From the NCBI RefSeq assembly GCF_002994745.2, contig NC_037091.1, forward strand, positions 38,562,112 to 38,626,111: a stretch of 64,000 nucleotides of DNA, written 5' to 3'. Shown piece after piece: positions 13,702 to 63,763 of this stretch; position 1 is the first letter of the stretch; every line of letters starts with the position of its first letter. The stretch comes from Rosa chinensis (Eukaryota; Streptophyta; Magnoliopsida; Rosales; Rosaceae). The translations under genes and the position numbers were made by a program. The notes beneath the pieces are model-generated. The model saw only the letters and a program-made list of their open reading frames with translations, was not told the DNA's origin and ran no database searches.

Positions 13702-14317
13702 ATTAATTTTATAACAAATTACATATAAGTTATTGACAAAAGATAACTTAACAAATACATCCTTTAAAGATTGAATTAAACATATAAGGACTAAATCTTA
13801 CAAATAAGGACAATGTGCTCTCCACTTGCCACATGTCATGAGTTAATTTACCTTTTTACCCTTAACTACTTCTTTTGACTTCTAATCCATTTATAATGAT
13901 TAAATATTACAAATAAGGACAATCTGCTTTTCACTTGCCACATGTCATGAGAAAATAATAAATTTTTATCCTTAACTACTTTTTTTTACTTTTAATTCCT
14001 TTATGTTACTTTTTTTTTTAAATAATCCATTTATATTACTTTTTTTTTAGAATAATATTTTTATGTAACTTTTTTTCGTAAGATAGCTTTATTGATATTT
14101 TAAACTCTCCAAAATGTCTTCAAAACTAGTTTTAGATACGAATATTTACCCCATATATCAAAACTTCAATCAAATTTTCTAAATTTTAATTTGCGCAAAA
14201 TATCTATTGAAATTTCCACAATTTTGAAGTACCAAAATTTTCTAAACTTCGTCTCACTAGTACGTTTCCCAACACAAATCCCCTCTTCCGGTAATGCACT
14301 CGTCATTGCGTAATCCT

Positions 14318-14785
14318 ACTACTACATTCGCTGCACTCATACTCGTCCAGTTCTGCTACTGTACTTGTACTCGTGTTTTGCTACTGCACTCGTCATCGCC
14401 TAATCCTGCTACTACACTAGTCAAATCCTGCTACTGCACTTGTCATCACCTAATCCTGCTACTGCACTCGTTGCAGTCATACTCGTCCAGTTCTGCTACT
14501 GTCCTCGTACTCGTGTTCTGCTACTGTACTCGTCATCGCCTAATCCTGCTACTGCACTTGTCCAATCCTGCTACTGTACTCGCTGCACTCATACTTAATC
14601 CAGTTCTGCTACTGCACTTGTACTATTGTTCTGCTACTGCACTCATCATCACCTAATCTTGCTACTGCACTCATCCAATCCTGCTACTGTACTCACACTC
14701 AGTCCAGTTCTGCTATTCAACTTGTACTTATGTTCTGCTACTGCACTCGTACTCGTCCAGTTCTGCTACTGCACTCAATGGAAAT
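14318..14785. repeat. Minisatellite of CTGCTACTGCACT-type units (copy A)
   Basis: Irregular tandem units built from CTGCTACTGCACT plus a variable CGTCATCGCCTAATC or CGTCCAGTT segment, spaced about 25-45 bp. The same tract occurs inverted in copy B. Open frames of about 120 codons here have a repetitive Leu/Cys/Ser make-up and look like products of the repeat rather than a gene. Confidence 0.8.
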
Positions 14786-15360
14786 CATATAATTCAGTCT
14801 CTAGTTATAATTGGCCCCAAAATACACAGTATTCCACCAAAGCTTGAACTTAAAACAAGGCTTAAGAAGCACCTGATGCCTTGGTATATGACATGATGGA
14901 GCCAAGAGATTTCATACAACTCTGATTATAAAGATGGTTAATGTAAAGTTACCATACATATGATGGAACTTCTAGTACTGAATTAACCTTTGTCTAAACA
15001 TTCCAGATAATTTTTTACGTATTTAGTATGTACTGCAATGTCTAAGTAACTATTGGTTTCACCACGATAGCTGCAAATTCAGACAGTGCTTCCTACTAAT
15101 ATGAGCCAAACTTACAAAAGCAGAAGAAAAACATAATGAAATGAATCTGTACGATTATCTATCCAACTTTCCCAACATTTCCTAACCACCACCATGTTAG
15201 GAATGTCAAACAAAAATTAGCATACAACAAATATCGTCACTTTATACAATAAGAGACGGAATAAGCTATACCCAACAAGCAAAAACCAAAACAAAATCGA
15301 ATTGTGCAAGAAGCATTGTAATTCCATGAACAGAGAGTAAAAAAAAGATGAAAACTTTAC

Positions 15361-15558
15361 CTGTTTGAGAATATGGGTCTGCTGCTTGAGAGGTCTGAAG
15401 CCTCCTCTGACGCTGATGAAGTAAAGATCTCTACTTTCACTTCTTCTATGGAGGTTCACAGAGTTCTGAGGCTGACCTAGTTGAAAAGCAAGGTAGAGAC
15501 CAAAGCAGAGACACACTTGTGCCACAATAGTGGGAACCCATAAACGTTTCTTCTCCAA
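15361..15558 (-). pseudogene. Captured first exon of a membrane protein gene (copy A)
   Basis: Begins at ATG 15558 with MEKKRLWVPTIVAQVCLCF; a hydrophobic segment at about residues 7-28 fits a signal anchor. It continues to DLYFISVRGGFRPLKQQ and ends at a well-formed splice donor (CAAACAG|GTAAAG) at 15361. No second exon follows, so this is a truncated gene piece. I do not recognise the family with confidence; it looks like the start of a plant type II membrane protein. It lies directly behind the kinase fragment on the same strand. An identical arrangement is in copy B. Confidence 0.6.
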
Positions 15559-15562
15559 TTTT

Positions 15563-15919
15563 TCACATACACGGAGAGAGAGAGCGATTGAGATCTAACC
15601 TCTCTCTCTCTCTCTGCTCAATGATGGCTCCTCCACTTATAGATCTGAATGAATCAACACCTGAAATAGAAATATCCCGATCCGAAGCAGTTGGCGGATC
15701 CCCTTGATTTTCGACCGGGAGGCGCTCGAAGGTCGGAACGACGTCAGATTTGAAGCAGAGGTCGAAGTCGGAGAGCATGATGTGGTCGTCCTCGCGGAGG
15801 AGGACGTTCTCAGGTCTGAGGTCGCGGTAGACGATCTGGAGCGCGTGGAGGTTTGGGTATTGGATATTGGTCAGTGGCAATGCACGTAAATTGTGATGAA
15901 ACTCAAGCATTTTAGTCAT
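15563..15919 (-). pseudogene. Captured AGC-VIII (WAG/PINOID-like) protein kinase fragment (copy A)
   Basis: The 118-codon frame contains the catalytic loop [16 protein letters not shown] and the DFD variant of the magnesium-binding motif in [18 protein letters not shown], both typical of plant AGC-VIII kinases of the WAG/PINOID group, which phosphorylate auxin transporters. Only subdomains VI-VII survive. The ATP-binding loop, activation segment and C-lobe are absent, and the usual lysine of RDLKPEN is arginine. After this block the frame runs into unrelated sequence ending in a GAGA-rich stretch. It is a non-functional gene piece carried by the mobile element. Confidence 0.75.
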
Positions 15920-16065
15920 TTTCTATTAAAATTCGAAGCAGGCCTGATTCATTTGGTTTTTGGGCCTGAGCTTGTGTCCTTATTTGTATAAAACAAATTG
16001 AATGTGAGTTTTCTGTGTTTATATCTTTGGTCAGGTGCTACTGTGTAATTTTCTATTAATTAATT

Positions 16066-16392
16066 TCACGTGCAAACCTAGAGTTAGGTTGCACGTGAGG
16101 GGGCGTGTTGGAGAGGAAAGATCCCACATTAGAAGAGTGACAAATAAAATATAACTTATAAGTGGGTAGATCTCACCCAATTGTACTTTAGGTTTGCACG
16201 TGAGGGGGCGTGTTGGAGAGGAAAGATCCCACATTAGAAGAGTGACAAATAAAATATAACTTATAAGTGGGTGGATCTCACCCAATTGTACCGAGGCCTT
16301 TTGTGATTAAAACCCAACACCTAATAGGTGGTTAAGTTGGGACAGTATCGGTACAATGGTGGGCCACGGGCCACGCTTGTCGCTGTTTAACA
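16066..16392 (+). mobile_element. TRIM element, 3' half (polypurine tract plus LTR), split from its 5' half
   Basis: Contains CACGTGAGGGGGCG (polypurine tract), a partial LTR (about 16106-16187), a second polypurine tract and a complete 182-bp LTR (16211-16392; TGTTGGAGAG...GCTGTTTAACA). The host bases after it are TAGAA. The 5' LTR with its primer-binding site is not here but at 63479-63672 on the opposite strand, next to TTCTA (the complement of TAGAA). The two full LTRs differ at two positions that I can see. TRIMs encode no protein and move with other elements' enzymes. Confidence 0.85.
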
Positions 16393-16505
16393 TAGAAAGT
16401 AGAGAAATAAAAGAGATTTTTGAAATTTTTATAACAATCTCTTTTATATGAAGGTGCACTTTAAGAATTATTGGGATTTTGGAGTCAGTGATTATATTAT
16501 AAATG

Positions 16506-18135
16506 ACTAAATTCAGTTTAGTCCCTCGAACTTTAAGCCTAAAATCACTTTGATCCCTGATTTTTTTTTTTAACCCCAATTTCCATCAACCTAGTCCAAA
16601 ATTTAACTTTGACTCTGATCGTGACGTCATACGCTGAATTGGCACCGACAAGCATGGCTCACTGTTCAAATTTTGACTCTCAGTTTGAGGAAATGTCCAA
16701 ATTACCCTCCTCTCCTCTCTCCTCTCCCAAATACCACAACCCTCTCTCTAACCCTAAAAACCCAGATCTCTTTGTAGCTCTGCTCAACCGCCACTATCCT
16801 CCTCTCCTACCTCACTTCCTGCTCCCAATCCTCTTCACCATCAAAACCAGTCTCCGACTACGCTCTCTCTCTCTGTTCTCCCTCATCTTCCAATCTCCCC
16901 AAACCCACCATCTCTGTACTCTCCAGAGGCATTCCCACCACCACCCAAACCATCAAAACCATATTTCACTTCATCTTCGCCACCTAAAATCAAAATAGTA
17001 AAAAGCATCCAATCCAACCCGACCTTGTGATAAAACCCAGATGAGTCAGATTACCAAAAACCCATCAAAAATTTCCAAGCTTTCAACAGACCCAACTCAG
17101 ATTATCAAACACCCATCAAGATTATCACAGGAAATAAGAAAACAAAAAACCATAACTGAATTTTATGAGCAAAAAGAAAAAATCACAAAACTCACCAACC
17201 ATACTAATAAAATTCAAAATCAAATCAAATCATGAATGAGTGAACCTCTATAATCAAAAGCAACCCAGCTCAAATCACAAGATGCAGTGAGAATTAGCAC
17301 CAAATCGGAGCTCGTTTTGCTGAAAATAGAAAAAAAAAAAAAAAAAAGGGTTTTGGGATCGCAAAGGGTGGGTGGGTGGGGTGGGGCCTGGGAGGGAGAG
17401 AGAGATAGAGGCTTCTAGGCATCGCCAGACGACATGGAGGCTGGGTTTGACTCGACGGAGACCGCGGAGCATGGTTGTGGTGGAGGTGAGCGCTGTGGTG
17501 CTTAGAGACCAGCGGTGGAGGAGAGAGAATTCTAGATTTACTTTCTCTTTCCTCGAACTCTCTCATACAGAAACCCAGCAAAAGTTGCTTCACAATCTGT
17601 TCTCTTCTCATCATTCTCCAGCTTCTCGGTGCATCTTCTGGGCGTCGTCGTTGCTGCGCCTACCTACTTGAAGACAAGCGGTGGTGTTTGGGGATGTCTC
17701 GCTTCTTGGAGCCGCCGATATGAGTGGAGAGGTGGTGAGTGCCGCTGTCGTAGTCGACAAAGACATGCTTCTGGAAGAGGACATGGGTTGGAGTTATTGT
17801 GTCGTGATCTGAGGCCGAAGAGGACGTGGTGGAGGAGGGAGGGAAAGGGAGAGAGAGAGAGAGAGGAGCTCTCGGGTTTCAGGAGAAGAGATGAGGAAAA
17901 GAGTATGAAGGGGTAATTTGGACATTTCGTTCAAACTGAGAGTCAAAAACTGAACAGTGGGCCATGCTTGTCGGTGCCAACTCAGCGTATGACGTCATGA
18001 TTAGAGTCAAAGTCAAATTTTGAACTAGGTTGATGGAAATTGGAAATGCAGGGACCATCTTGATTAAAAAAAAGTGAGGGACCAAAGTGATTTTAGGCCT
18101 AAAATTCGAGAGACTAAACTGAATTTAGTCCTGTC
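16506..18135. mobile_element. Mutator-like element with long terminal inverted repeats
   Basis: The left arm (16506 to about 16708) and the right arm (about 17910-18135) are inverted copies of each other, over 200 bp and mostly identical. Both read ACTAAATTCAGTTTAGT at the outer end, then AAAATCACTTTG, TTTCCATCAACCTAGT, GACGTCATACGCTGA and GGCACCGACAAGCATGG. ATAAATG flanks both ends (16499-16505, 18136-18142) and may be part of the target duplication, though the left tip seems to have lost a few bases. The 1.2-kb interior is CT/GA-rich with no recognisable transposase, so the element is non-autonomous. Confidence 0.75.
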
Positions 18136-18274: not shown

Positions 18275-20345
18275 GAGGCAACACTTTTGCTCTGAACACA
18301 ATCATTCAAATGATAGAGAAAGAGACCACCTGAATAAGTTTCCTAGTGTCCACTCGTATTCTCCTGCTTTACATGCTACTTGGAAGTGAGTAACTTGTCC
18401 CGTTAAGTTGTTGCATTCTCTATTCATGATCTTGCAAAATCGCATATTGAGTTGAATACCGAGAATAGAAGTGATCCTGGAGTTTCAGTTTTAAAAACAG
18501 TACTTTCCAGGGCCTCTTGGCTACTGTATGACATATAGAGATCTCATAAAGTTTCATAAAAACTCTTTTCTGAAGCTCTATGATGTGTGTAATATAAGGT
18601 TGTCACCTTGGAACTAATCTATCCAACGATCACCGATTTCTTTTTATCTATAAGTGTTTTTAATATAAATTTCTGGTAGTTTTATCCCATGAGTTAAGGC
18701 ATACCGCCAATTAAAAGAATGATTCTACTACCATTTTCAGGTCAGCTGGATATATACAAGATTTAATAATGTATCATTTCCATTTTTCAAAAGCTTAATT
18801 GGTGTTTCTTTCTTTAGGGGAGGCTTCATCATTCTCGATTCAGAAACACCTGCTCAATTCATTGGTGGATTCCAGGCACAACCTCCTTGTACTGTACATC
18901 ATAAAGCCTATGAGTTTTCACGAAAAATGCCTCATGTCTTACCGGACAATTTGCTTCCTAGATTGCTTCTTTGGGCTGATCCCTTCCGAGAGGAATGTCC
19001 TGATCTTCAAGATGTTGACTTTACTTTTTCCCTGATAATAACATTGCCAGGTCTGTTTTGTCTTCAAATTGCATGGTTGTTATCATGTTATGTATGAAAT
19101 ATGTTGTCCATAGAAGTATCTTATCTGAGCATATTTTTTTTCCTGCTGATTTGTAGATCAAAAGAGACATACGCTTTGTTGTTGGAGGTCATGGATACCC
19201 AAAATTCAGTGATGATGATTTACTTTGATGGAGTGGATGTTGTGGATTTGTTGATAGTTACATCTAAACAGCTGCATTTAGACTCATTTGAGTAAACTTT
19301 CTTATAGAATGCTTCTTCTCTTGCAGAGATTTCGCCCTTTCAGATGACTTTTAGGGAATTTTTATTTGGTAGGTTCTTTATTGATATCGTACATTGCTTA
19401 TCAACCATCAACATATTGGTAATTATAACTGTAGCAAGAAAATGCGTAGAGTTTCAAGGAAGCTAGGGGCCAGGTCACAAAATATTGTGTCTCAAATGTA
19501 ATTAACTAGGATGGCTTCTTGCATTGTGAAGTTGGTGTCTTTAGTAGCTTTTATCATCTAGTTACATGCACACAATGCTATGTGTGCTTCTGCTTGTAAT
19601 TTTTTACTTGGTGCCCTAATACGATTGCCTGGAATTTTGTTATTGCAGATACGGTGACAAGTCCAAGTACAGAAAATTTCTCATGGGGAATTTTTGCGTG
19701 ACAAGAATCATTGTTGAGCTGACATGGGTGACAATGGAACTACTGTTGATATGGAAGTTGACATGGCAGGTGGAAAGATGGTGGGAACCGTTGATATAGT
19801 CGTTCCGAAAGGTTCATCCACCCGTTGTAGAAGGCCTGAGCCTATCATGAAAGTAGTGCAGCAACTTTTGACTATTAAGAAGGAGGAGCATTCATCCTAC
19901 CAGACCAGATTAAGGGTTCTAGATTCTACTATTAAACAATTGTTGGCATTTAACTCAGAGGAGCTTATCATGAAGGATGAGCATTCTGCATCATCGGGTA
20001 TTAATTTTTTAAACTGTCATTATATTTTTTCATAAAAGGGAACTTCCTCATGGTCTGTCATATTGATCGATGCTTATCTTCCACCTTGATCCTTATATCA
20101 AAAATGAAGACGGCATGTTGCATGCAAGTGAAGCTGGAGAAAGATGAGGATGAAATCTGCCTTATAACGGACAAGAAAACACTCCCACCAAGCTTTCCTG
20201 AGCTTAACCCTCAAAAGTGTTGCTGGCTCAACTGATGAAATGGTAGGGACAACTTCAACTGTAGACGAGATAACCATACTTTGGATGCTTTGCAGCAGAG
20301 ATAACCACACCAGAATATAGCTAGAAAGAAAATACAGAGACAGTT
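18275..20345 (+). pseudogene. Decayed PHD-finger protein gene: SPOC-like (AIPP2-type) region
   Basis: Exon-like blocks lie at 18275-18385, 18818-19050, 19157-19291 and about 19650-20040, the first three with sensible splice borders. Joined, they read HATWK, GGFIILDSETPAQFIGGF, QAQPPCTVHHKAYEFSRKMP, LWADPFREECPDLQDV, then LLEVMDTQNSVMM and LLIVTSKQLHLDS. I recall this pattern from the SPOC-like domain of plant PHD-finger proteins of the AIPP2 type (chromatin readers that control gene silencing); this is recognition by eye only. One T seems lost near 19028, shifting the frame, and the last block is also out of frame. Copia-2 interrupts it at 20345. It may be the 3' part of the gene whose exon is at 63764-63936. 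Confidence 0.55.
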
Positions 20346-21261: not shown

Positions 21262-21339
21262 TGTTGAGAATATATACATCCCACATGGGAAAAATGGGAC
21301 CTTGCCTATGGATTTATAAGGATTTGGGCCACTCCATCC

Positions 21340-29249: not shown

Positions 29250-29851
29250 TGGTAAGACATACTTTCAATTTGACTTTAACCATGACTTCATCAAAAGTTA
29301 CCCCTCAAAATATGGTGATCATTCACAAATCCCAAATTTATTATATTGAGTAATTGAGAATTCACTTCTCAAAATATACAAATCAAGTAACACTTTCTAA
29401 TTAATTTCTATCAGAAATTTATATTTTGAAAATATCTCCAAGGCATAGGCGAAAGGTCGTATGATTTGGTTCGTAAAATCAATTAACTGCAAATGAGATC
29501 ATCAGAATGCAAATTAAATTGTGATCATACATTCAAAGGACTTTTTGAAAGGTTTTTACAATTTTTTTTTTGCTTTGCCGTCACTACAGAAGAAATGTCT
29601 CAAAACGTGTATTATGTGGGACCGTGGGGCATTCTGAAACCGCTATCAATTTGGTATGTGCTGTAAGCCATTACCCCATGTTATTCTGTATTATTATCAG
29701 AATCTCAAAAGTTATGTTCTCTCTGTCCAAAACAGAGCCATGAATTCTATGAGAGGAAACCTCTGCAAGCCTACTGTATTCCATCTCTCTCTTTACTAAT
29801 TGATTGAAGCACTACAGTACTGCTGCTTGTTCCGAGTTCGTGAGGAGGAAG
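29250..29851 (+). other. Upstream region of NLR2
   Basis: 600 bp of AT-rich non-coding sequence between the hAT element and the NLR2 start codon. It presumably includes the promoter and 5' untranslated region. An ATG at 29804 is in frame and would add 16 residues; the ATG at 29852 is preferred because NLR1 begins with the same MAAEF. Confidence 0.5.
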
Positions 29852-32800
29852 ATGGCAGCTGAATTTGTGCTCACTTTCGCTGCTGAGGGAATTCTGACCA
29901 AGGTGTCTTTACTTGCCTCTCGAGAACTCACTCTTTCTTGGGGGTTCAAGGCCGAACTGAAGAAGCTCGGAGAGTCCTTATCCAGCATTCAAGATCTCTT
30001 ACGCGGCGCTGCGGATCATCAGGACAAGGCAGTAGAGAAGTGGGTCAAGAAACTGAAAGGCATAGCTCACGAGGCAGATGAAGTGTTGGATGAATTCAAC
30101 TATGAAGTTCTCAGGCGCGAAGTGGAACTGCAAAACCACATGAAGAGAAAGGTACTCAACTTCCTTTCTGCCTCTAATCCCCTTTTGTTTCGTCTCAAAA
30201 TGGCGCGTAAGATTAAGAAGATCAATGATGCTTTGGTGGAGCTTAAGAATGATGCAGCTCCCATCAACTTGGTTGCAAAGCCAAGCCCTGGAGGGGAACA
30301 GCCGGATCGAGATCAAACGGATTCAGTTTTTGAGAATGATGAAAAGGTTGTTGGAAGGGAGGATGTTGTGTCAAAAATAGTTGAGAGCTTGACCAACTCC
30401 AACAATCAGCAGCATCTTTCGGTTATGGCCGTTGTTGGAATGCCTGGACTGGGAAAGACGACTGTGGCTAAATCAGTGTACAATGAACCTGCCATAGATA
30501 CACACTTCCATAAGAAAATATGGGTGTGCGTATCAAATACTTTTGATGTCGATGTGATTTTAAGCCAGATGTTAGAATCTCTAACGAGGCATACTGCTGC
30601 AGGAATGAAAAATCGAGATGCATTGATTAATTCTCTTCGAGATGAGTTGACAGAGAAAAAATATGTTCTTATACTAGATGATGTATGGAGCGGGGATAAA
30701 TCAAAATGGGAGAGTTTGAAGAGTTGTTTGTCAAAGCTGAATTCTTCTCCGGGAAGCAGCATTATCATCACCACCCGCAGGGCCGATGTGGCATCTATTG
30801 CTGAAACGTCTATTGCTAAAATACTCCCCAGACCTGAACTGAGATATCTATCAGATGAAGAATGTTGGTCCATTCTGAAGCAAAGAGCATTGAATTTAGA
30901 GGTGAATGATGTCATTGATGCAGATCGAGAAAGGATTGGGAGGGCGATTGCTGAAAAGTGTGGAGGAGTACCCTTAGCTGCAAAGGTACTCGGTTTTATT
31001 TATTTTATATTAACAAAGATTCCCCTTTTTTCTTTTCATTTACAACAAAAATATCTTTTGGTTTTGTACGTAATTTTAATTTGAATGCACCCCCCTACAA
31101 AATAGAATATAAGGGAGCTCTGAGAGCTAGCTACAACCCAAAGTTGGCCATCCACCAACAGTAGCCACGTACCATATTGAAACCTCATCCATCGCTTCTC
31201 TAAGAGCCAGTACAGTATCTTTCAAAATACCCATCCACCAACAGTTGAAATTAACTTTCTTATTGAATCCACTTCATAGAGTTTTTGATATAAAAACTTT
31301 GTTTTTAGCGAAATTATGTTAGTAGATAAAAAACGATTAGATTGTGCCTTGTGCTGGAGCCATGAGAAAAGAGAGCATCCTAATTATGTACTCTAGATTG
31401 AAAGCAGTTGCAACATATTATCACGAGGCCTTAGCTTTTAGTACAAAATCTTGTTTTTCTGAAACAACATACAAGGCAGAGGGACATATTGTGGACAAAA
31501 ACAGAATTCCAAATAGAAAAAAATAGAAAATATGTTAGTATGATTTTCAACTCACGAGTATGTTTAACATTAGACTTTGAAAGTTTGAATTCCAATCTCA
31601 TATGACAAGTTATCCAAAATCTAAACTGTAATCTCATATGATGCAGGTTTTGGGAAGCATAATGCGCTCTAAAACTAGTAGAGATGAATGGTTGGAAATT
31701 CAAGAAAGTGAAATATGGGACTTACCTGGAGAAGAGGATAGAATCATGTCGGTATTGAAGTTGAGTTTTAATAACTTGAAGTCACTGCCTTTGAAGCAAT
31801 GTTTTGCATATTGCTCAATGTTGAAGAAAGATTTCGAAGTTGAAAGAGATAATTTGATCCAACTTTGGATGGCTCAGGGATTGCTTCAGCTGTCTACTGA
31901 CAATCATGATGAAATGGAGGATACAGGCAAAAAATATTTTGATACGCTATTGAAAAACTCCTTATTTCAAGAGGTAACTAAAGGTAGCACTATTACCAAG
32001 TACACGATGCACGATCTTGTGCATGATCTTGCAGAAGAAGTATCCAAAAGTGAGAGCTTGACACAAGATTTGAATGATACATGCGAGGTTCGACATGTTG
32101 CACGTATTCCTCCTTCAACATTAGAAAACTTGTCAGAAGTGACTGTGAGGAGATTGCACTCACTATTTTCAAATGATCAGGTCCCAGATATCATTTTCTG
32201 CAAGGTTAGAGTATTGCGGGTCTTAAGTTTACAAGGGCCAAAAATTCAAGAGTTGTCAAATTCATTTGGCAAGTTAAAGCACTTGAGATATCTAGACGTC
32301 TCATATTCAAGAATCAAAGCACTTCCCAAGTCAATTGGCAAGCTCTATAACCTTCAAACATTGAGAATGCAGGGTACTTATAATCTTAAAGAGGCTCCAC
32401 GGGAAATGCAAAACTTGATCAACTTGAGGCATCTTTATTTTGAGAAGCTTATGGAATTTCCAGCTGGAATATTCAGGGGATTAGCTAATCTCCGAACATT
32501 GTCTTATGTTAATGTGGGTAAGGAGATGGGTCTTGGAATTGAGGAATTGGTTGGCTTGAACCAATTGAAAGGTGAATTAATCATTCGTAATCTGGAAAAT
32601 ATAAGGGATGAAGAAGAAGCAAAGAAGGCAAAATTAGAGGACAAGAAAAATGTACTGGAGCTAAGTTATGTATGGGCAAGAAGCAGAAGCAATCCAGAAG
32701 GTTTGGAGAGTAGGCCGAGGAGCAACATTAATGACGAGAATGTGCTAGAAGGACTCAAACCACATACCAAGTTGGAGAGCTTGAGGATTGAAAACTTCAT

Positions 32801-35006: not shown

Positions 35007-35418
35007 AAACTGTCCCTCGCTTCAGGAATTAATGATATCCGGTTGCTCAAGTCTAGAGACCATTTCGTTTACACGTGTCCTCCCATCTCTCCTCAAATTG
35101 CAAGTTTACAGCTGCGATGAATTATCTTGCTTGGCTATCATCGAATACTGTCCCTCGCTTCAGGAATTGAGTGTAAGAAAATGCCCCAAGCTAGCATCCA
35201 TTTCATTTTCTACGGATTTGAATCCATGTCTTAAGGAGTTGCATATAAAGGATTGCAATGGTCTATCATCTCTTCCAGATTTCGACAGTTTCACTTCCTT
35301 CCACAAATTGGATATTTTGAAGTGTGGTGCCAGTGGTGGGTTAACGGTCCTACCGTGCGGGATTGAAAACTGCACCTCTCTTCAGGAATTAATGATATCG
35401 GATCCGGATCCTCTCTAA
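34938..35418 (+). pseudogene. Out-of-frame C-terminal LRRs of NLR2
   Basis: Beyond the frame break near 34967, LRR coding sense continues in another frame: CGGLTALPCGIENCPSLQEL, SSLETISFTRVLPSLLKLQV, CLKELHIKDCNGLSSLPDF and a final SLQELMISDPDPL with a stop at 35416-35418. NLR1 retains the same segment in frame with its repeats (ATTTACAGGTGTGG against ATTCTAAGAGTGTGG here), which locates a one-base gain. About 150 residues are lost from NLR2 unless a splice, an allele or a sequencing correction restores them. Confidence 0.85.
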
Positions 35419-44900: not shown

Positions 44901-45370
44901 GGACTAAATTAAGCTTGCTATCCTTAAGGTATATCACTTATTTTCTTCTTTGGACATGAATGTATAAAAGGCCTCATGACTGTGGTTTGCTGCTTGTGGT
45001 TGTCAGTTATGTAATGTATATATATGCTTTATAATATGGCTTAATTATCCTTAGTCTATAAATATAGTAATGGCCGGTTAGGAAATTAAAACAGAATATG
45101 TAGCAGTCTTGTAATATGCGACGTTTTATGTTTTGGTGGAATACGGAAACATTTGAATTGAATTGGCTTCTTCTGTTTTTTGGTTTTCTTCGTCTTTTAA
45201 AGTAGCTGCATTATGTTGATACATATATCAGATAATGCTTTTTGAAGTTGGCAGATGTGAAGTTTTTTTTTTAATTTTTAATATGGATAAGTACTTGTGT
45301 ATATATTGTGTTGATACATTAGAGAATGCTTTTTTAAGTTGTCTAAACTTAAGTTTGTTTTCTTTTTAAG
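41901..45370 (+). other. CACTA 5' region: leader/promoter and long non-coding stretch
   Basis: A CT-rich, GC-richer stretch (about 42050-42340) carries a 58-bp tandem repeat (42186-42325, 2.4 units with CGAAGTCGCCGAAGCTTA) and looks like a transcribed leader. It ends near TCTACAG|GTACTATATCC (42352-42367), a possible first splice donor. The next 3 kb is AT-rich without convincing coding sequence; a 131-codon frame at 42729 has no recognisable motif. The whole may be the 5' untranslated region and intron of the transposase gene, or captured sequence. Confidence 0.45.
42186..42325 (+). repeat. 58-bp tandem repeat in the CACTA leader
   Basis: Copies start at 42186, 42244 and 42302 (the last partial). 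Each begins GAGCTCGAAGTCGCCGAAG or a one-base variant. Confidence 0.8.
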
Positions 45371-48300
45371 ATGGATAAGTCTTGGATGCATGCTGATAGG
45401 AGATCACATACATATAAGCTAGGTGTTCAGGAATTCCTTAAGTTTGCTGTAGAGAATGCAAGCGATATAGATCATATCTGCTGTCCCTGCGCTAAATGTG
45501 GGGGTACAGATGGGTTTTTATCAGCTAGGATGATAAAAGATCATCTATATTGGAATGGTATAGATGAGAGTTACAAAGATTGGGTATGGCACGGAGAACC
45601 TTCTAGGGCAACGATGAATGCCATTGAAGGGATATCTGAAGCTACTGTTGATATGGTAGAAGATGGAGATGGGGCAGATAATATAGGGCTGGAAGATCAG
45701 GGAGAAAATAGGGCTGGTGAGGATGAGCAGTTTATCGATAATGGTGAGGAAGAGCAGTTTGTTGATAATGGTGAGGATGAGCAGTTTTCAGTAGAATCAA
45801 ATGACTTCATGAAGCTAGTTGAGGATGGAGATAAAGCTTTGTACCCTGGTTGTACGAAGCACATAAAATTAAATGCACTTATACAGACCTATAACCTTAA
45901 AGCAAAACATGGCATGTCTAATGTGTGCTATTCTGACATGTTGATCATGATCGCCATGTTTCTTCCTGAAGGTAATGAGATACCAAGTTCACATTATGAG
46001 GCCAAAAAGACTTTGGTTTCATTAGGAATGGACTACAAAAAGATACATGCATGTCCTAATGACTGCATTTTGTATAGAGGACAGCATGCTGATGCAACTA
46101 GTTGTCCTACATGTGGGGAGTCAAGGTGGAAATTAGGGAAAGATAGTACTGTGAAGCAAGGGGTACCTGGGAAGGTATTGTGGTACTTTCCCCCAATCCC
46201 AAGGTTCAACCGCATGTTTCAGTCCACAAAAACTTCCAAAAGCCTAACTTGGCATGAGTATGAGAGGAGGAAGGATGAGTTTATGCGTCATCCGGCAGAT
46301 TCCCCCACTTGGAAGTTAGTGGACCAAAAATGGCCAGACTTTGGCAATGACCCTAGGAACCTCAGACTTGCACTTTCATCCGATGGTTTCAATCCCCACA
46401 GCTCTTTGAGCAGTAGATATTCTTGCTGGCCAGTTATACTAGTTACGTATAACCTCCCACCATGGCTGTGCATGAAAAGGAAGTTCATGATGCTAACTAT
46501 GCTGATTTCAGGACCTAAACAACCCGGAAATGACATTGATGTGTACTTGCAGCCCTTAGTTGATGATTTAAAAGCTTTGTGGGATGGGATAGATGGAGTC
46601 TATGATGCATTTAGAGGAGAATACTTCAAACTGAAAGCTGTTCTCTTTTGGACAATTAATGACTTTCCTGCTTATGGGAACTTGTCGGGCAGTGTCACTA
46701 AGGGATACAATGGCTGTCCTATATGTTGTGAGAACACAAAACCTCATCGGTTGTCTCATGGACAAAAGATGAGCCATATTGTTCACCGGAGATGGTTACC
46801 GCGCCATCATCCTTATAGAAGGCAGACTAAGGAGTTCAATAACCTACCAGAATATGAAACTGCCCCTGAACCTTTAAGTGGAGAAGAGGTCTTGCAAAGG
46901 GTTGAGGGGATGAACCGACCATTCGGTAAAAAGAACCCTTCTCCAACATATAAGGGTCTAGAAGATGAAAGCAGACCTTGTTGGAAGAAGAAGTCCATAT
47001 TCTTTGATCTTCAGTATTGGAAATTTCTTCCGGTTCGACATAATCTCGATGTCATGCACATTGAGAAGAATGTATGCGATAGCATTATCGGTACATTATT
47101 CAACATTCCTGGAAAAACAAAGGATGGAGTCGCTGCTAGGTTGGATATGGTAGATATGGGCATAAGGACTGGTTTGGCACCAGAACCTGGGAAAAAAAAA
47201 AGACAAGCTGCCTTTGGCAACTTGGAATCTGCTGGTAGAAGAGAAAAGAGCAATGTGCATGTCTTTTTTCAGCATGAAAGGTCCTTACGGAATTTCCTCA
47301 AATATAAGGAATCTTGTTTCCTTGGATGACCTAAGGCTGGTAGGGCTCAAATCACATGATTGTCATATGGTCATGCAACAGCTACTTCCTATTGCTATAC
47401 GTTCAAGTTTAGAGAAGCCAGTCTGGTATGCAATCATTCGGTTTTGTTTGTTCTTTAAGGCTATATGCAGTAAAGTGATAGATGTTAGAGAGCTAAAAAA
47501 AATGCAAGAAGACCTCGTTCTGACAGTTTGTGAGCTTGAAAAGTATTTTCCACCTTCGTTTTTCGACATCATGATTCATCTCACAGTTCATCTTGTCAGA
47601 GAAGTTGAGCTTTGTGGACCAGTATTCTTTAGGTGGATGTACCCTTTTGAACGGTACATGAAAACCCTCAAAGGCTATGTTAGAAATCGAAACCATCCAG
47701 AGGGTTGCATTGCTGAGTCCTATATTGCTGAAGAAGCCGTGGAATTTTGCTCAGAACGTGCACTTTCTGAAGATACAGTTGGCATCCCATCAGTAGGCAT
47801 ATTTGATGTAAGTTGCAGCAAACCCTTATCTGGTGCTACTATTGTATCTGTCTATGGAAGGGAGTTGGAGCTAGCACATCTATGTGTGTTACAGAATACA
47901 GAGGAAGCAAGACCATACTTCGAGTAAGTATAAATTACACTTTCAATCTATTGTTTACATTTGTACAGCTTTTCGCAGTTAAAAATGTTAGTTTTGATCA
48001 CATTTATAATTTTGCAGAGAACATATGGAGATTTTGAAGCATACCTATCCAAGGTTCAAAAAAAATGAAAATTGGCTGACCAATAAGCAAAATTTAACTT
48101 TTGTTAGCTGGATAAAGGAGAGGGTACGTGTCGTTAACAAAAGTATCAATTTTAATACCTAGGAACGTGATGATGTTAATATGTTTTGGTGGCTGTGCAT
48201 TAATATGTTTATATGTTTTCATAGGTTCTTGAAGAATTGGGCATTCCTAATCATGGAATCTCTGAAACTTTGAGGTGGATTGCAGATGGACCGAATCCGG

Positions 48301-48878
48301 ATGTACCTACATTTTGTAGTTACATGGTCAATGGGGTTCATTTCAATACCAAGGAACGTGATGATGTTAGGAAAGTGCAAAATAGTGGTGTTTTCCTAAA
48401 TGCCCGTGCTTTACAAGTATCTAGTGCGAAGGACAAAAACCCCAAACTGGATGATATGCAATTTTATGGGGTGATTACATCAATTTGGGAGATGGACTAT
48501 CAACAGTTTAGAATCCCTGTGTTTAAGTGTGATTGGGTTGAAAATGCCAAGGGCATTATAGTAGATGAGTTTGGGTTTACGTTGGTAAACTTGAATAGGA
48601 TAGGTCATGTGGCCGATCCATTTGTTTTAGGTAAGGATGTGAAACAAGTATGGTATGCATCTGACCCTCTTGATGATGATTGGTCAGTAGTTATTCAATG
48701 TTCTGATAGAGATTATGCCCACGATGGGGATGAAGAAGAAGAGCTTGACAATTTGGAACTTGAGCAACAGCCCTTTGTAGCAAGAATGCCAGCAATTGAG
48801 TCGTATGACAATGCAGTTGGTGATGATGAGAATCGCTACTTGCGAGAAGGGAATGAAGGGATATGGGTTGATAAATGA
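45371..48878 (+). CDS. CACTA TNP2-type transposase (three exons, one poly-A frameshift)
   Basis: Exons: 45371-47923, 48018-48123 and 48225-48878. The protein starts MDKSWMHADRRSHTYKLGV with the transposase-associated zinc-binding domain (HICCPCAKCGG). It continues through the TNP2 core (YSDMLIMIAMFLPEGNEIP, CPNDCILYRGQHADATSCP, WKFLPVRHNLDVMHIEKN), then a DUF4218-like part (GLKSHDCHMVMQQLLPIAI, FDIMIHLTVHLVREVELCG, RWMYPFERYMKTLKGYVRN), and ends with a DUF4216-like exon. It would cut and join the CACTA ends. In exon 1 the frame changes at ten A's (47192-47201); nine A's would give one continuous frame. The actual protein therefore needs slippage, a corrected base, or is lost. Confidence 0.9.
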
Positions 48879-49117
48879 TAAATCTCCCCTAAACCCATTT
48901 GTAGTATAGGCAGTTAATGTTGAGGCACTTTTAGCATGTGTAATGATCATTTTTTTATGATTTCTGATAATGCAAAATGGTTGAATTCTCATTTACTTAT
49001 TAGACGTTATAAATATTATGAACTTGATTGTATTTGCTTTTGTGTTTATTTTTGTATCGCAACACTTAATTATTATAAATGAAAAGCTGACTGTATTTGG
49101 TTTTGTGTTTTCAGATT

Positions 49118-52100
49118 ATGGCACCTTCAACGCGAAGACCTTCATCTCAAGCACTAGCAATGGCTAAGAGAATGAGAGAAATTCAGTTGGGGACAAGGTG
49201 TACTACCAAGAGATCAAAGGGAACCAGTAAGGCTTCAGTACACGGTGCATCAAAGGCCTTGTCGTTGAAGCGACGACGTCATTCGAAGGGTTCAAAAGCT
49301 GTCAGAAAAGAAGGACTGAAGTTGCTTAAACGAGGGTGTGTAACTATGTGTCGCATTGTGAGGAGAAAAATTATTGGAAAGAAGATGACAGTTAGCTTTA
49401 ACGATAAAGGAGAACCAATAGGGAAAGCTGGTAAAGAAATGCAGTCATATATTGGGGTGTTAGCTCGCAAGAAGGTTGCAATCTCGAATCCTACATGGAA
49501 CGATGTTTTAATGGAACATAAAAACAAAATCTGGGAAGGCGTAAAGGTATGATCCATATTTCCTAATTTTTGATCTTTTGGTATTTCTTATGTGTTGCAT
49601 ATGATTGATGCTTACTTGTTCAGTTACTTATGCGTTGTTGGTTGCTATTTTCATGTATATAGTTGGCGTTTCTGTTGCGTCCAGAACACAAAAGAATGGT
49701 TTTAATCTCAGCAGGACGGAAATGGAGAGAATTCAAGAGTCATTTGACTACCCGCTACATTCTCCCTTATAGGGATAACCCTGAAATGATCGAGTCTCGT
49801 CCAGAGGACTATCTTTTCATTAATCAACGGGATTGGGAGATTTTTGTAAAGGATAGGTTGTCTGACACATTCCTGGTAAGTAAGAACTATTTGGCAGTTA
49901 CTATTTTGTACATATTGATTGAGTGTTTACAAGTTAAGCATGTAATGAGTGACCTTGTTATGTAGGAACTGCATGAGAAACAGAAAAAAAAAAAAAAGGG
50001 CCTTAAATAAGTATCCTCATCGGATGTCACGTAAAGGATACGCTGGATTGGAGGAAGAACTGGTTAGTAATCAGTTGCATGTTTCATGGTTTGTACATAC
50101 TGATTTATTATACAATGGTATAAATATTGACTTGATCAATTTATATAGTCTGGATGTATGAGTGACTCTGAACTTGATCGTGCAACGATGTGGATTAAGG
50201 CACGTCAGGACAAGAATGGTGGGTTTAAAAATCCTTTGGTAGAGGAGAAGGCCAAAAAAATTGTAAGTCGTTTCAATTTGGTTTGAGATCAGCCCTTTGA
50301 ATGTAATGTTACACCATCAATACTTTCGTATATATCTCACCCCCAAACACATGTATTTTCAGGCTGCTTTGAAGAAAAAGGAGGTTGAGGGAGAGTTAAG
50401 CACTTCGGGTGCAGATGATGTATTAACCTTAGCATTACGAAATCCTGAAAATACTGGAGTAGTAAGAGGAGTGGGAGGTAGTGTGAGGAAATCTACATAT
50501 TTTAACCTCCCAAAACGTCGAAAGCAAAGTGTTGAACAAACTGTTAGGTTAAGTGTTCAGAAGATAATGGAACAAGAGAGGGAGAAGATATTAGCAGAAG
50601 AACGAGCAATTTGGGAGGAGAGATTTAGGAGGTTAGTAGAGAAGCTTGGTGCGAGTGCTTTGCAAACTGAGTCCCCCAAAGTTTCCACCATTGACAAGCA
50701 AGTGGGTTCTGGACAAGGAAGTTGTTCAAATTTGCAAGAGAAGGCCGTTGTGGGAAGTGAAAAACTGATTTCTGCCACTGTTAAGAAGTCTTTGGATTTA
50801 GAACATCTTCAGGAGCCATCAACAGAATTTTTGGAATTAAAACTTCCTCTTCAGGAGCCAGTAAAAGATGTGAATCCCATTAGTGGAGTGAAGTTGAATG
50901 CTACTGCGAAAGATGTCAAAAATAGTGAGGTGGTTGTTGATCTGGAAATCCAGAAGGGTTCAATTCAGGTAATTGTAAATGTGTTCTACATTAAACCATT
51001 ACATCGTTTAGTTAGATGATGTGTTATGCTGCCATGTTACATTATTTGATCAACTATCTTATATAGTGTCTCATTATAACACTTTATCATTTTTAGGTAG
51101 AAACAATTGAGAAAGAGTGCCGATTGGCTACAGGTTCAATCGATAATGTTGTAGCAATTGCAACAATTACAGAAGTCAATGGTGAAAACAATAGCCAGCT
51201 TATCCATGGTGTTCCATTGCTCAAGGGAAATAGGCGTGTGTCAATTGTCACTTCTCTAGTGGATGAAGCTAAGCTTCCATTTCCGATCAAAGATGAAATA
51301 GTGACTGTTCGAGATGCTATCGGGACTTATGTGGCCTGGCCTGAAAACCTTATAATTTTTCAATGCGAGTCTAAGGTAACAAATAGTACTTATAACTTCA
51401 TTTAAATGTACCTTAAAGTTAATTCTTGCTTTGATGACTTGTCCCTACTGATTTGTACCATTTTCTGTTACACAAGCAGACGGCAGCAAAGAGTAAAGGA
51501 TTGAAGAAGAGAAAAATTGCAGTTGAAGATGATGATGAAGAGGAAGATATAGACACTGCATCACTGCCACCAACTACTCCTGCATCTCTTATTGCGGTAT
51601 GCAATTGGGCCAAAGAAAGAATGAGAAATGCTCAAACAATTATCTGCGAGTTCGATGAAAAGATTTTCGGACATCCTTCCAAAACTTTTATTTGCAAACA
51701 TGATATTAATAACTTTGTTACCATGAAGGAAGTATCGGGCAGCTGCATAGGCATCTATATTCGGTAACCTACTCGCATTAGTTGGAATTTACATATACGT
51801 GTCATAAAACTTATGGTTTAATGTTGCGTTCTTTCATTTGTAGCTACCTATATTGTGTGTTGAAAAAAACAAAAATGGTAGATATGGTTGGATTTATGGA
51901 CAATACAGATGTTGGTGCCATTGGGTGTGGCAGTCCAATTGAGCGTTCCCGTGCTATCGCCGATAGGCTAAAACGAGCAAAGCGTGGTCAGATTATTTTG
52001 GTGCCATATAACTCTGGGTATGTAATCTCCATGCATTGGATACATGCTTTCTGAAATTGATATGGTCCTGAATATATTGTGATTTGATGTCCATTGTCTT

Positions 52101-54717: not shown

Positions 54718-56173
54718 ACTATATACTAAAGCTCCTGCACTATTCATTTTACTGTTCATCTGTGGTATATGAAATGACTCTTTTGCCCTCTATTTTTTGT
54801 TAACTACGGCCCTGCCATTCAGTCGTTCTAGAATCCTCCCTCTTTTTGGATTTTTTGCGCGGAGAGAGAAGAGTGCAGCGGAGGAGGGAGAGAAAAGGAG
54901 AGTTTGTTTCCGCCGTGCCCAGAATAGCCCAATAGAAATCGGAGAAGATGTGCAGTCCTTCCAACCTTCCTCGGGTAGTGATCGATTACCATACACACCT
55001 ATCGGCTTGATGTCCTTTTTTTTTTTTTGTCTTTGTCTTGATTTTAGTCATTAGTTCTGCACATACCTGGGATTTGAGTGAAGTAACAGAGGACGGACTG
55101 TATTGTGGCCACTGAGCTTGCGAAGCCCCTCACTGCTTATTGCATGTAAGATTAGCTCAATTTAATTACTTTAGTTCAATTTTCTGATTATTTACGTCTG
55201 CACAGATCAAACTTTTGGAGAAAAAATAATGTGTGTGATTGAATTGTGATACTAAGAATGGAAACTGATTAGACATAGCTCAAAATGGGTGAAGCTTATA
55301 TTTTCAAGCTTTCCTTTATCCTCAACATCTGCTTAAGGCTTTTCAGTTGAGATATTATTGGAGTGGTGTTTTTCTGATTTGACTCTGGTGAGTTCTTCGG
55401 GAGACATTACTGTTTTGTTTTTTTTCAAGACTTCTGGTTAGTTACTTTCGAGAAGGTGTGTTCCTGCAGATTTGTTAATACATATCTGACTATTAACAAA
55501 TCAAATGATGGTGATCAATGACAAGAAATCTGTTTCTGCTGTTAATGTTCTCTCACATAATGGTGACTAATGACAAGAATTAAATTCGATCTTATTCTCT
55601 GACTTCTTCATGCAGCATTGACAACGCATTTGGTACATGAAGTGGAACTAATTTTTTAGGACACATCAACAATATACCCTGATAATACAAAACATTTGAT
55701 AGTTAACTAAAAGTAAACGATATCAAGTAGTAGGAAATTGGTTTTAATTTTAATATTGATTGAGATTTTATTGATTTGTATATGTTATTGAAAGGCTTTT
55801 CTTGATTTTGTTTTTTTCAGGCAATGACAGAAACGAGTTTGGAGTAGAATCTCAGCCAAAAGAGGCTGAGGAAAGTGTGGTAAGTGATTCTCAACATCTG
55901 CATTACGAATTGTGTGGCTGCTCAATTGGTTTACGAGTTTGAGTTGCGAATGGAAGTTCTTTTGCATTTTATTATTCTTAGACTACTTATAAGGTTGGAT
56001 TAGTTGCTAACATGCCTTCTGGGTTTTGTACTTTTAGACTACTTATAGAAGTTCTTTTGCATTTTTATTATTCTTAGGTTCCATACTTTTGTCAAATTTG
56101 TAGTAATTTCATAATCAATTTGTTCATTATAAAGAGTTTAGGATGATCACATCTCATTTCTATACTATTGACC

Positions 56174-56302
56174 ATGGCAAGAGCTCCATGTTGTGACAAA
56201 GCTAATGTCAAAAAAGGACAGTGGTCTCCTGAGGAAGATAAAGCTAAGTCTTGGGACTCATGGAACTGGTGGCAATTGGATTCATCTGCCACAAAAAGCT
56301 GG
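56174..56302 (+). pseudogene. R2R3-MYB first-exon fragment (frameshifted)
   Basis: Starts at ATG 56174 with MARAPCCDKANVKKGQW and SPEEDK, the N-terminus of an R2R3-MYB transcription factor. After about 25 codons the frame shifts; the next frame reads LGTHGTGGNWIHLPQKAG and ends at a GT splice site, just where the first MYB intron normally lies. Codons between SPEED and LGTHG are missing. The GTGGNWI block suggests the RAX/MYB36-like subgroup. No second R repeat follows, so this is a gene piece, probably carried by the surrounding Helitron. Confidence 0.8.
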
Positions 56303-56791
56303 TAAGTTTATTAAAGGGTCTTCCTAAACTGGAACCAATCTTTAAGGATTTAAATGCCAATATGTATGGCAACCACGTATCCTATTGCATGTAAAGTAAA
56401 TGGTTTTATTATGTTAGATTCTTAATGGAATTCTGGAATCGAATTTGGAATTTGTATTATTGGTTTTGGCTCATGATTGGTTTCATCAAGATCTTTAATT
56501 TAAACTTAGATAGTCACTCGAATTTGGTAAAGGAGTTAATGTCACTCCTGGCTCACAGGTGATATTAATTCTGCCACAATGACATTGTAAACCTAGCAAC
56601 CAGTATGATTTGTTACCTGTTGTTTTGTTTTATGCTATGCCTTCAAATTTTTGACAATATTCGGATAAATGGTAGAAATTCTAATGACCTAAAATAAAGC
56701 CCAAATATGTTTTTAATTCCGGAACATTTTGTTCTCTGTTTATCATGAACTTATGACAACCTTGCTTTTGTTGTTTTTCTATCTAAAACAG

Positions 56792-60932: not shown

Positions 60933-61078
60933 ATAAAATTAATAGAAAATTACACAGTAGCACCTGACCAAAGATATAAACACAGAAAACTCACATTCAA
61001 TTTGTTTTATACAAATAAGGACACAAGCTCAGGCCCAAAAACCAAATGAATCAGGCCTGCTTCGAATTTTAATAGAAA

Positions 61079-61435
61079 ATGACTAAAATGCTTGAGTTTC
61101 ATCACAATTTACGTGCATTGCCACTGACCAATATCCAATACCCAAACCTCCACGCGCTCCAGATCGTCTACCGCGACCTCAGACCTGAGAACGTCCTCCT
61201 CCGCGAGGACGACCACATCATGCTCTCCGACTTCGACCTCTGCTTCAAATCTGACGTCGTTCCGACCTTCGAGCGCCTCCCGGTCGAAAATCAAGGGGAT
61301 CCGCCAACTGCTTCGGATCGGGATATTTCTATTTCAGGTGTTGATTCATTCAGATCTATAAGTGGAGGAGCCATCATTGAGCAGAGAGAGAGAGAGAGGT
61401 TAGATCTCAATCGCTCTCTCTCTCCGTGTATGTGA
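61079..61435 (+). pseudogene. Captured AGC-VIII kinase fragment (copy B)
   Basis: The same 118-codon frame as at 15563-15919, with no residue difference seen: [16 protein letters not shown] and [16 protein letters not shown]. It is truncated on both sides to the catalytic-loop region, so it has no kinase activity. It lies about 140 bp from the element end. Confidence 0.75.
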
Positions 61436-61439
61436 AAAA

Positions 61440-61637
61440 TTGGAGAAGAAACGTTTATGGGTTCCCACTATTGTGGCACAAGTGTGTCTCTGCTTTGGTC
61501 TCTACCTTGCTTTTCAACTAGGTCAGCCTCAGAACTCTGTGAACCTCCATAGAAGAAGTGAAAGTAGAGATCTTTACTTCATCAGCGTCAGAGGAGGCTT
61601 CAGACCTCTCAAGCAGCAGACCCATATTCTCAAACAG
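61440..61637 (+). pseudogene. Captured first exon of a membrane protein gene (copy B)
   Basis: The same as 15361-15558: MEKKRLWVPTIVAQ..., one hydrophobic segment, ending at CAAACAG|GTAAAG. No downstream exon. The family is not recognised. Confidence 0.6.
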
Positions 61638-62214
61638 GTAAAGTTTTCATCTTTTTTTTACTCTCTGTTCATGGAATTGCAATGCTTCTTGCACAATTCG
61701 ATTTTGTTTTGGTTTTTGCTTGTTGGGTATAGCTTATTCCGTCTCTTATTGTATAAAGTGACGATATTTGTTGTATGCTAATTTTTGTTTGACATTCCTA
61801 ACATGGTGGTGGTTAGGAAATGTTGGGAAAGTTGGATAAATAATCGTACAGATTCATTTCATTATGTTTTTCTTCTGCTTTTGTAAGTTTGGCTCATATT
61901 AGTAGGAAGCACTGTCTGAATTTGCAGCTATCGTGGTGAAACCAATAGTTACTTAGACATTGCAGTACATACTAAATACGTAAAAAATTATCTGGAATGT
62001 TTAGACAAAGGTTAATTCAGTACTAGAAGTTCCATCATATGTATGGTAACTTTACATTAACCATCTTTATAATCAGAGTTGTATGAAATCTCTTGGCTCC
62101 ATCATGTCATATACCAAGGCATCAGGTGCTTCTTAAGCCTTGTTTTAAGTTCAAGCTTTGGTGGAATACTGTGTATTTTGGGGCCAATTATAACTAGAGA
62201 CTGAATTATATGAT

Positions 62215-62690
62215 TTCCATTGAGTGCAGTAGCAGAACTGGACGAGTACGAGTGCAGTAGCAGAACATAAGTACAAGTTGAATAGCAGAACTGGACTGAG
62301 TGTGAGTGCAGTAGCAGGATTGGATGAGTGCAGTAGCAAGATTAGGTGATGATGAGTGCAGTAGCAGAACAATAGTACAAGTGCAGTAGCAGAACTGGAT
62401 TAAGTATGAGTGCAGCGAGTACAGTAGCAGGATTGGACAAGTGCAGTAGCAGGATTAGGCGATGACGAGTACAGTAGCAGAACACGAGTACGAGGACAGT
62501 AGCAGAACTGGACGAGTATGAGTGCAACGAGTGCAGTAGCAGGATTAGGTGATGACAAGTGCAGTAGCAGGATTTGACTAGTGTAGTAGCAGGATTAGGC
62601 GATGACGAGTGCAGTAGCAAAACACGAGTACAAGTACAGTAGCAGAACTGGACGAGTATGAGTGCAGCGAATGTAGTAGTAGGATTACGC
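62215..62690. repeat. Minisatellite of AGTGCAGTAGCAG-type units (copy B)
   Basis: The reverse complement of the tract at 14318-14785, with a few unit differences (for example GTGAGTGCAG here against the shorter form in copy A). Confidence 0.8.
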
Positions 62691-63289
62691 AATGACGAGT
62701 GCATTACCGGAAGAGGGGATTTGTGTTGGGAAACGTACTAGTGAGACGAAGTTTAGAAAATTTTGGTACTTCAAAATTGTGGAAATTTCAATAGATATTT
62801 TGCGCAAATTAAAATTTAGAAAATTTGATTGAAGTTTTGATATATGGGGTAAATATTCGTATCTAAAACTAGTTTTGAAGACATTTTGGAGAGTTTAAAA
62901 TATCAATAAAGCTATCTTACGAAAAAAAAGTTACATAAAAAATATTATTCTAAAAAAAAAGTAATATAAATGGATTATTTAAAAAAAAAAAGTAACATAA
63001 AGGAATTAAAAGTAAAAAAAAAGTAGTTAAGGATAAAAATTTATTTTTTTCTCATGACATGTGGCAAGTGAAAAGCAGATTGTCCTTATTTGTAATATTT
63101 AATCATTATAAATGGATTAGAAGTCAAAAGAAGTAGTTAAGGGTAAAAAGGTAAATTAACTCATGACATGTGGCAAGTGGAGAGCACATTGTCCTTATTT
63201 GTAAGATTTAGTCCTTATATGTTTAATTCAATCTTTAAAGGATGTATTTGTTAAGTTATCTTTTGTCAATAACTTATATGTAATTTGTT

Positions 63290-63672
63290 AATTAATTAAC
63301 AATCCAATTCCCACATTGGAAATTGGGACACAAGTCTCATATTGGAGACTTGGCCAATATAACAATCCAAGGCCCACACCGGACACTTGGTAACAATCCA
63401 ATCGGAATTTTCCAATGGCAATATAATGAACCCAAATTCGGGCCCATGACGATTGGAGACGCAATTGGAGAGAGACCCGCTCTGATACCATGTTAAACAG
63501 CGACAAGCGTGGCCCGTGGCCCACCATTGTACCGATACTGTCCCAACTTAATCACCTATTAGGTGTTGGGTTTTAATCACAAAAGGCCTCGGTACAATTG
63601 GGTGAGATCCACCCACTTATAAGTTATATTTTATTTGTTACTCTTCTAATGTGGGATCTTTCCTCTCCAACA
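63290..63672 (-). mobile_element. TRIM element, 5' half (LTR plus primer site), split from its 3' half
   Basis: Read leftward: a 182-bp LTR (63672 to 63491; TGTTGGAGAG...GCTGTTTAACA), then the primer-binding site TGGTATCAGAGC (63490 to 63479), then about 190 bp of interior ending at GTTAATTAATT, where copy B of the Mutator-like element begins. The outer flank is TTCTA (63673-63677), the complement of TAGAA found beside the 3' half at 16393. There is no 3' LTR here. Confidence 0.85.
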
Positions 63673-63763
63673 TTCTATACTCTAATAGTTAGTGTACTAA
63701 TGAATAACAAAAACTTGATACAAGTCAGTAAAATGTAGAAAATAATAAGAAAACATATTTTAC

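Follow-up and report, generated by a model that had tools for sequence, protein, structure and literature searches.

A segment of about 44.9 kb in the genome of the rose Rosa chinensis, lying between two nearly identical Mutator-like elements (MULE) in opposite orientation, is probably a real chromosomal inversion generated by ectopic (non-allelic homologous) recombination between the two copies. The segment resides in a 64,000-nucleotide stretch of contig NC_037091.1 (positions 38,562,112 to 38,626,111), hereinafter the window, within which all coordinates are given (Table 1). The target duplications of the two copies are exchanged, a terminal-repeat retrotransposon in miniature (TRIM) and an AIPP2-like gene are each split between the two ends of the segment, and homologous proteins of relatives carry the exon order that is recovered when the segment is flipped. 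We infer that the plant itself, rather than the assembly alone, carries the flip, and that recombination was the mechanism. Such an inversion had been proposed in an earlier note based on the flanks and the TRIM, and that interpretation is now supported with stronger evidence than before, given that the exchanged flanks, the TRIM and the gene agree.

Exchanged flanks of two inverted Mutator-like copies

The two copies, A and B, bound the segment on the left and on the right, respectively. BLAST aligns 13712-16061 with 63290-60937 in inverted orientation at 99.6% identity, in keeping with the earlier estimate of 99%, and the copies differ by 5 substitutions and 4 one-base indels, the indels being located in T runs. 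The element ends, AACAAATTAC...TAATTTTCTA, are the same in both copies and fix their boundaries, whereby the limits given previously, 13713-16054 and 60944-63289, are refined to 13713-16055 and 60943-63289. As the earlier note had claimed, neither copy has matching flanks of its own, and each flank finds its partner at the other copy: the pairs across the copies, TTAATTTTAT and TTAATTAATT with their respective complements, show 0 mismatches in 10 positions, whereas the pairs within one copy show 3 in 10. The 11-mer ATTAATTTTAT occurs at only two places in the window, both at the copy flanks; the flank pair previously described as 11 bp long stands as an exchanged match but not in its length, the duplication itself being 10 bp and the additional A being equally compatible with the end of the element. 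Once the segment is flipped, 10-bp target duplications are present at both insertions; those of MULE range from 9 to 11 bp.

All four flanks open with TTAATT, which leaves four discriminating bases per pair, and neither 10-mer is unique in the window (TTAATTTTAT has further sites at 12458 and 45863, and TTAATTAATT at 11060, 53849 and 63288, the last one overlapping the flank). Because of this shared start and the recurrence of the 10-mers, the flank test is weaker than one on ten free bases. The probability that two 10-mers starting with TTAATT match by chance is 0.0082 (n = 97 in the window, the four flanks included), compared with 0.0089 for 10-mers composed entirely of A and T and 0.0014 for a 5-mer. 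The joint chance of the three matches, taken as a product that counts neither the paired TRIM halves nor the gene, is ~1e-7. Together with the gene described below, which provides a test independent of the flanks, these statistics rule out chance matches in AT-rich DNA.

The attribution of the two copies to the Mutator-like elements, which we regard as provisional, rests on the 10-bp duplications and on a gene piece that they carry. An open reading frame (ORF) at 61076-61435 of copy B matches the protein kinase family (PF00069, E=1e-7) and is apparently a captured fragment of a host gene. The piece is of the AGC type and includes the catalytic loop, with SGK1 as its best solved relative, and copies A and B are identical in every base across it; among 3 candidate proteins of length similar to this 119-aa ORF, none was related at E<=1e-3. 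The terminal inverted repeats are limited to a short imperfect match, AACAAATTACATA / TAGAAAATTACACA, of ~10 matching bases, a score that is attained by 27 of 5000 random pairs. The subterminal motif ACAAATAAGGAC, or its complement, is found at six sites of the window, all of them inside the copies. No Mutator-type transposase was detected with Pfam in the two copy-B ORFs scanned, and the longest ORF wholly within copy B encodes 131 aa, as is expected of a non-autonomous copy; the missing transposase bars only the label autonomous. Pack-MULEs are non-autonomous elements that generate 10-bp duplications and carry pieces of host genes. The rose copies resemble them in non-autonomy, in the duplications and in the piece of a host protein kinase, and differ in that their terminal repeats comprise only ~10 matching bases; we regard them as putative members. 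The substitutions between the copies (5/2343) correspond to roughly 0.08-0.16 million years, an estimate from a small count and assumed rates, and recombination, which may have homogenised the copies, may affect it.

A TRIM retrotransposon cut in two

TRIM are shorter than ~1 kb, lack coding capacity and are recognised by short long terminal repeats (LTR) with TG..CA ends, a primer site, a purine tract and a 5-bp target duplication. At the right-hand end of copy A, the element is followed by the interior of a TRIM, a purine tract, a 182-bp LTR and the pentamer TAGAA. On the minus strand at copy B, TAGAA is followed by an LTR, the primer site TGGTATCAGAGC, the TRIM interior and the Mutator-like copy. 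The two LTRs, of 182 bp each and with TG..CA ends, differ at 2 positions, and GAGGGGGCG precedes the 3' LTR; the ORFs touching the element do not exceed 92 aa. The earlier description of a TRIM cut in two, with its TAGAA duplication split, therefore holds: the halves are complementary, and flipping 16056-60942 joins them into one 710-bp TRIM with TAGAA on each side and a Mutator-like copy in its interior, between two TTAATTAATT. The same single flip restores both 10-bp duplications, so that all pairs are repaired in one step, as had been asserted. Two separate TRIM insertions are ruled out, considering that the halves complement each other, share TAGAA and are joined at the Mutator-like duplication.

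As a control, target duplications were sought within 6 bases of the BLAST ends of four other LTR pairs of the window. Three of these combine TG..CA ends with a matching 5-bp duplication (ATTCG, ATATG and CAGTT); for the fourth pair, 35726-41698, no matching 5-bp duplication was found within this distance. The divergence of the TRIM LTRs (2/182) translates, with likewise assumed rates and a small count, into roughly 0.4-0.8 million years. A TRIM older than the Mutator-like copies agrees with the nesting, although the counts behind this order are small. Within the 3' part of the element, a 105-bp tandem duplication (98%; 16084-16291) has doubled the purine tract along with the beginning of the 3' LTR. 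An exact-match search of viral contigs with a TRIM piece returned 0 matches.

An AIPP2-like gene split by the probable inversion

The TRIM halves lie within an intron of an AIPP2-like gene whose exon A is located outside of the segment, whereas the remaining 3' exons (exon B, exon C and C-terminal pieces) are located inside. Homologs were searched for with the joined exon peptides among 471 candidates of 0.55-1.75x the padded length (E<=1e-3), the query, assembled from both loci, favouring proteins that have both parts. Of the five homologous proteins found, Fragaria x ananassa contributed one and Rubus argutus two, and the other two are R. chinensis paralogs, on sequences of 70,290,800 bp and 67,241,324 bp, respectively. 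In all five, each a single natural protein, the exon A part precedes the exon B and C parts, with 4 to 9 residues between the stretches that match exons A and B; these residues correspond to the beginning of exon B, ahead of the point at which its frame changes. In one of the paralogs, P0125 (319 aa), the match stops at 18899, early in exon C. In the present sequence the strand changes from minus at exon A to plus at the later parts. Once the segment is flipped, every part is on the minus strand, in the order of all five homologs. Because the flip restores this order, the arrangement that it yields is probably the older one, and the inversion would have pulled apart exons that are joined in the strawberry and blackberry relatives. 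The present order demands that the next exons be found on the minus strand at 54.4-60.9 kb; none is present there in the ORF list, and that interval has no match to any of the five homologs.

The junction of exons A and B, formed with canonical AG/GT sites, fits in splice phase and reads SYG on the exon A side and GNT on the exon B side. The corresponding residues are SYGGNT in P0121 (Fragaria) and P0122 (Rubus), NYGGNT in P0123, SSGGET in P0124 and SYGPYGGNT in P0125. The reading frame of exon B changes with the canonical donor and continues with a donor one base later, which is not GT. Exon C contains a clear frameshift near 19025, and the C-terminal part has a frame change near 19694 and a stop after NHC; therefore, this copy of the gene is decayed. 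The SPOC_AIPP2 domain (PF23121) is recognised at 18818-19050 (profile positions 2-71, 52.9 bits, above the cut-off of 28.1) and, below the cut-off, at 19157-19290 (positions 68-118, 25.5 bits). The same intron also holds a stretch with ~200-bp inverted ends (85%), at 16505-18130.

Table 1. Features of the window associated with the probable inversion, and the two resistance-type genes
Feature	Position	Strand	Evidence or remark
Inverted segment	16056-60942		~44.9 kb; flip restores all duplications and gene order
Mutator-like (Pack-MULE-like) copy A	13713-16055	+	2343 bp; inverted match to copy B at 99.6%
Mutator-like copy B, inverted relative to A, with kinase gene piece	60943-63289	-	2347 bp
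Target duplication 1, half at copy A	13703-13712	+	TTAATTTTAT; 0 mismatches to complement of 60933-60942
Target duplication 1, half at copy B	60933-60942	-	Complement is TTAATTTTAT at left of copy A
Target duplication 2 (TRIM interior), half at copy A	16056-16065	+	TTAATTAATT; 0 mismatches to complement of 63290-63299
Target duplication 2 (TRIM interior), half at copy B	63290-63299	-	Complement is TTAATTAATT at right of copy A
TRIM 3' part: interior, purine tract, 3' LTR (16211-16392)	16066-16392	+	LTR comparison
TAGAA, 3' target duplication of TRIM	16393-16397	+	
TRIM 5' part: 5' LTR (63491-63672), primer site (63479-63490), interior	63300-63672	-	TGGTATCAGAGC after LTR
TAGAA, 5' target duplication of TRIM	63673-63677	-	
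Exon A of AIPP2-like gene, outside inverted segment	63764-63936	-	tblastn, 5/5 homologs, 57-88% identity; acceptor AG, donor GT
Remaining 3' exons of AIPP2-like gene, within inverted segment, decayed	18275-20302	+	tblastn, 5/5 homologs; PF23121
Pieces of these 3' exons	18275-18385; 18818-19050; 19157 to ~19290; C-terminal pieces to 20302	+	
CC-NB-LRR (RGA3-like) gene, within inverted segment	29852-35442	+	PF18052, PF00931, LRR families
Second, related CC-NB-LRR gene, outside segment, broken by Copia element (3421-9992)	3-11049	-	

Proposed origin of the inversion

The observations described above would be explained by three successive events. A TRIM would have entered the intron of the AIPP2-like gene and duplicated TAGAA; one MULE copy would then have inserted into the TRIM, duplicating TTAATTAATT, and another one ~45 kb away, duplicating TTAATTTTAT; finally, a crossover between the inverted copies would have flipped everything between them, thereby exchanging the duplications, cutting the TRIM and separating the 5' and 3' parts of the gene. 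When the flip is undone, the TRIM and both Mutator-like duplications are whole, with no deletion or duplication, as seen at the joints only. Recombination is the preferred mechanism because two inverted repeats suffice for it. In regarding the locus as a signature of ectopic recombination, the earlier note is supported, now also by the order of the AIPP2-like gene, but exchanged duplications alone are not specific with respect to aberrant transposition. According to the study on Galileo transposons (PMC2775673), marks of ectopic recombination include an exchange of the duplications, copies in opposite orientation and joints that are intact, and hybrid-element transposition looks nearly alike, but leaves copies that are identical rather than chimeric. 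In the latter reaction, the ends of two sister MULE copies would act as one transposon and insert ~45 kb away, producing both the inversion and the exchanged duplications. The near identity of copies A and B is consistent with this possibility, and an inversion in Arabidopsis has been ascribed to a one-ended insertion of Vandal5, a Mutator-like element (PMC5664140). Nevertheless, a rarer reaction would, in our judgement, be required, and the copies are not identical now, although later mutation could account for their 5 substitutions and 4 indels. We consider this origin unlikely.

An equally low probability is assigned to the possibility that the chromosome is uninverted and that the assembler crossed between the copies at both ends, with the result that the 45-kb segment is drawn backwards. 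Such an error would leave the same sequence signature as a real inversion, and the copies share 2.34 kb of sequence at 99.6% identity. A repeat of 2.34 kb is, however, far below the usual PacBio read size, and the wrong crossing would be needed at both ends. The window is without N, and hence neither joint is a padded scaffold gap. Moreover, the 3' half of the split gene shows the decay that severance from its start would lead one to expect, although this decay may predate the split. On the other side, mis-joins are reported for this cultivar in an assembly made from PacBio reads with CANU, of which 13 contigs were split (PMC6786968). Pure coincidence, that is, two independent MULE insertions with diverged duplications along with two separate TRIM insertions, can draw on the AT-rich flanks, which, sharing TTAATT and recurring in the window, are less informative than 10 random bases; given the joint chance of the matches, the TRIM halves that complete each other and the gene, which ignores the flanks altogether, we deem it exceedingly improbable. 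Several points weigh against a recombinational inversion in the plant: all the evidence comes from one assembled sequence of one haplotype; 5 substitutions between only two copies are too few to show the chimerism that separates recombination from aberrant transposition; and the homologous proteins inform on the gene structure in relatives and paralogs rather than on the same locus in another rose.

Resistance genes and other features of the window

The inverted segment contains a coiled-coil nucleotide-binding leucine-rich repeat (CC-NB-LRR) gene of the nucleotide-binding leucine-rich repeat (NLR) resistance type, whose best relative is the R. chinensis RGA3 protein P0001, with 99.7% identity in residues 1-383 and 93.7% in the repeat-rich remainder. 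In the LRR end of the gene (33561-34983), near-identical repeats recur in tandem at multiples of 138 bp, with identities of up to 96%, a pattern suggestive of recent LRR expansion. The second CC-NB-LRR gene, outside of the segment, matches 29849-35302 in inverted orientation at ~89%, and protein P0006 matches it at 100% (window positions 2707-836). The Copia element that breaks this gene is 6.6 kb long and has Copia domains, LTRs that are 99.5% identical and the duplication ATTCG.

The Fragaria x ananassa protein P0121 (ACLB2K_040231) is annotated as running on from the AIPP2-like gene into the beginning of an NLR on the same strand; probably, two adjacent genes were merged by annotation. The window parallels this order inside the segment, where the AIPP2-like exons end at 20.3 kb and the NLR gene starts at 29.85 kb, with a Copia insertion between them. 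However, the NLR part of P0121 can be matched to either NLR gene, and to the outer one, at 11049, even better over the first stretch (69% vs 57%), and for this reason P0121 cannot tell which of them adjoins the AIPP2-like gene. After the flip, both NLR genes run in the direction of the AIPP2-like gene, a shared direction that would be in line with what is often seen in tandem duplicates.

The LTR element at 11364-13355, with 507-bp LTRs that are 100% identical and the duplication ATATG, appears to be a very recent insertion; no domain was recognised in the one ORF scanned (412 aa). Remains of a CACTA-type transposon (Transposase_21, DUF4218 and DUF4216) occupy 45353-51019 inside the inverted segment. 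At 56147-56400, there are broken reading frames, in which two ORFs scanned with Pfam gave no match, and which we take, by eye, to resemble the start of an R2R3-MYB gene.

Relation to known inversions and implications

Ac of maize is a hAT transposon. Rearrangements caused by Ac/fAc resemble the rose case in comprising inversions with transposon ends at the junctions, and differ in the transposon, in the 8-bp junction duplications and in the fractured element involved (PMC5664140). In the same source, the 1.17-Mb inversion between Arabidopsis Col-0 and Ler is attributed to the Mutator-like Vandal5 and interrupts a gene at a breakpoint, as in the rose, but it is much larger and was inferred to result from insertion of one transposon end into an exon rather than from an exchange involving two complete copies. 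The closest parallel in mechanism is provided by the Galileo inversions 2j, 2q7 and 2z3 of Drosophila buzzatii, which are attributed to ectopic recombination and share with the rose locus opposite copies at the breakpoints and exchanged duplications, as well as, in 2z3, the lack of deletion or duplication (PMC2775673). Galileo belongs to the P superfamily and generates 7-bp duplications, and for 2z3 the uninverted chromosomes and chimeric copies were shown (PMC2775673), whereas the rose case is known from one sequence; conversely, the nested TRIM and the split gene are two extra marks that go beyond Galileo. Among the titles and beginnings of abstracts listed in literature searches, none dealt with this inversion. 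Thus, transposon-made inversions are already known, and the rose case is a new one with an unusually full record.

By themselves, repeats at breakpoints provide little evidence that an inversion was made by a transposon. At the rose locus, an intron, a TRIM in the intron and a MULE in the TRIM form three nested layers that, together with the second MULE site, all point to a single flip and to the order in which the events took place. Should the flip turn out to be an assembly error, these marks would still pinpoint a spot where resistance-type and AIPP2-like genes are misdrawn in the rose genome sequence. It is conceivable, although we hold it to be very unlikely, that the 45-kb segment with its resistance gene can still be turned over by way of the nearly identical inverted MULE copies, such that the two orientations form again and again and segregate among roses. 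Every flip would then disrupt or reunite the AIPP2-like gene and shift the NLR gene from one chromosomal environment to the other. The rose locus thereby offers a ready test case for the formation of short plant inversions beside NLR resistance genes.

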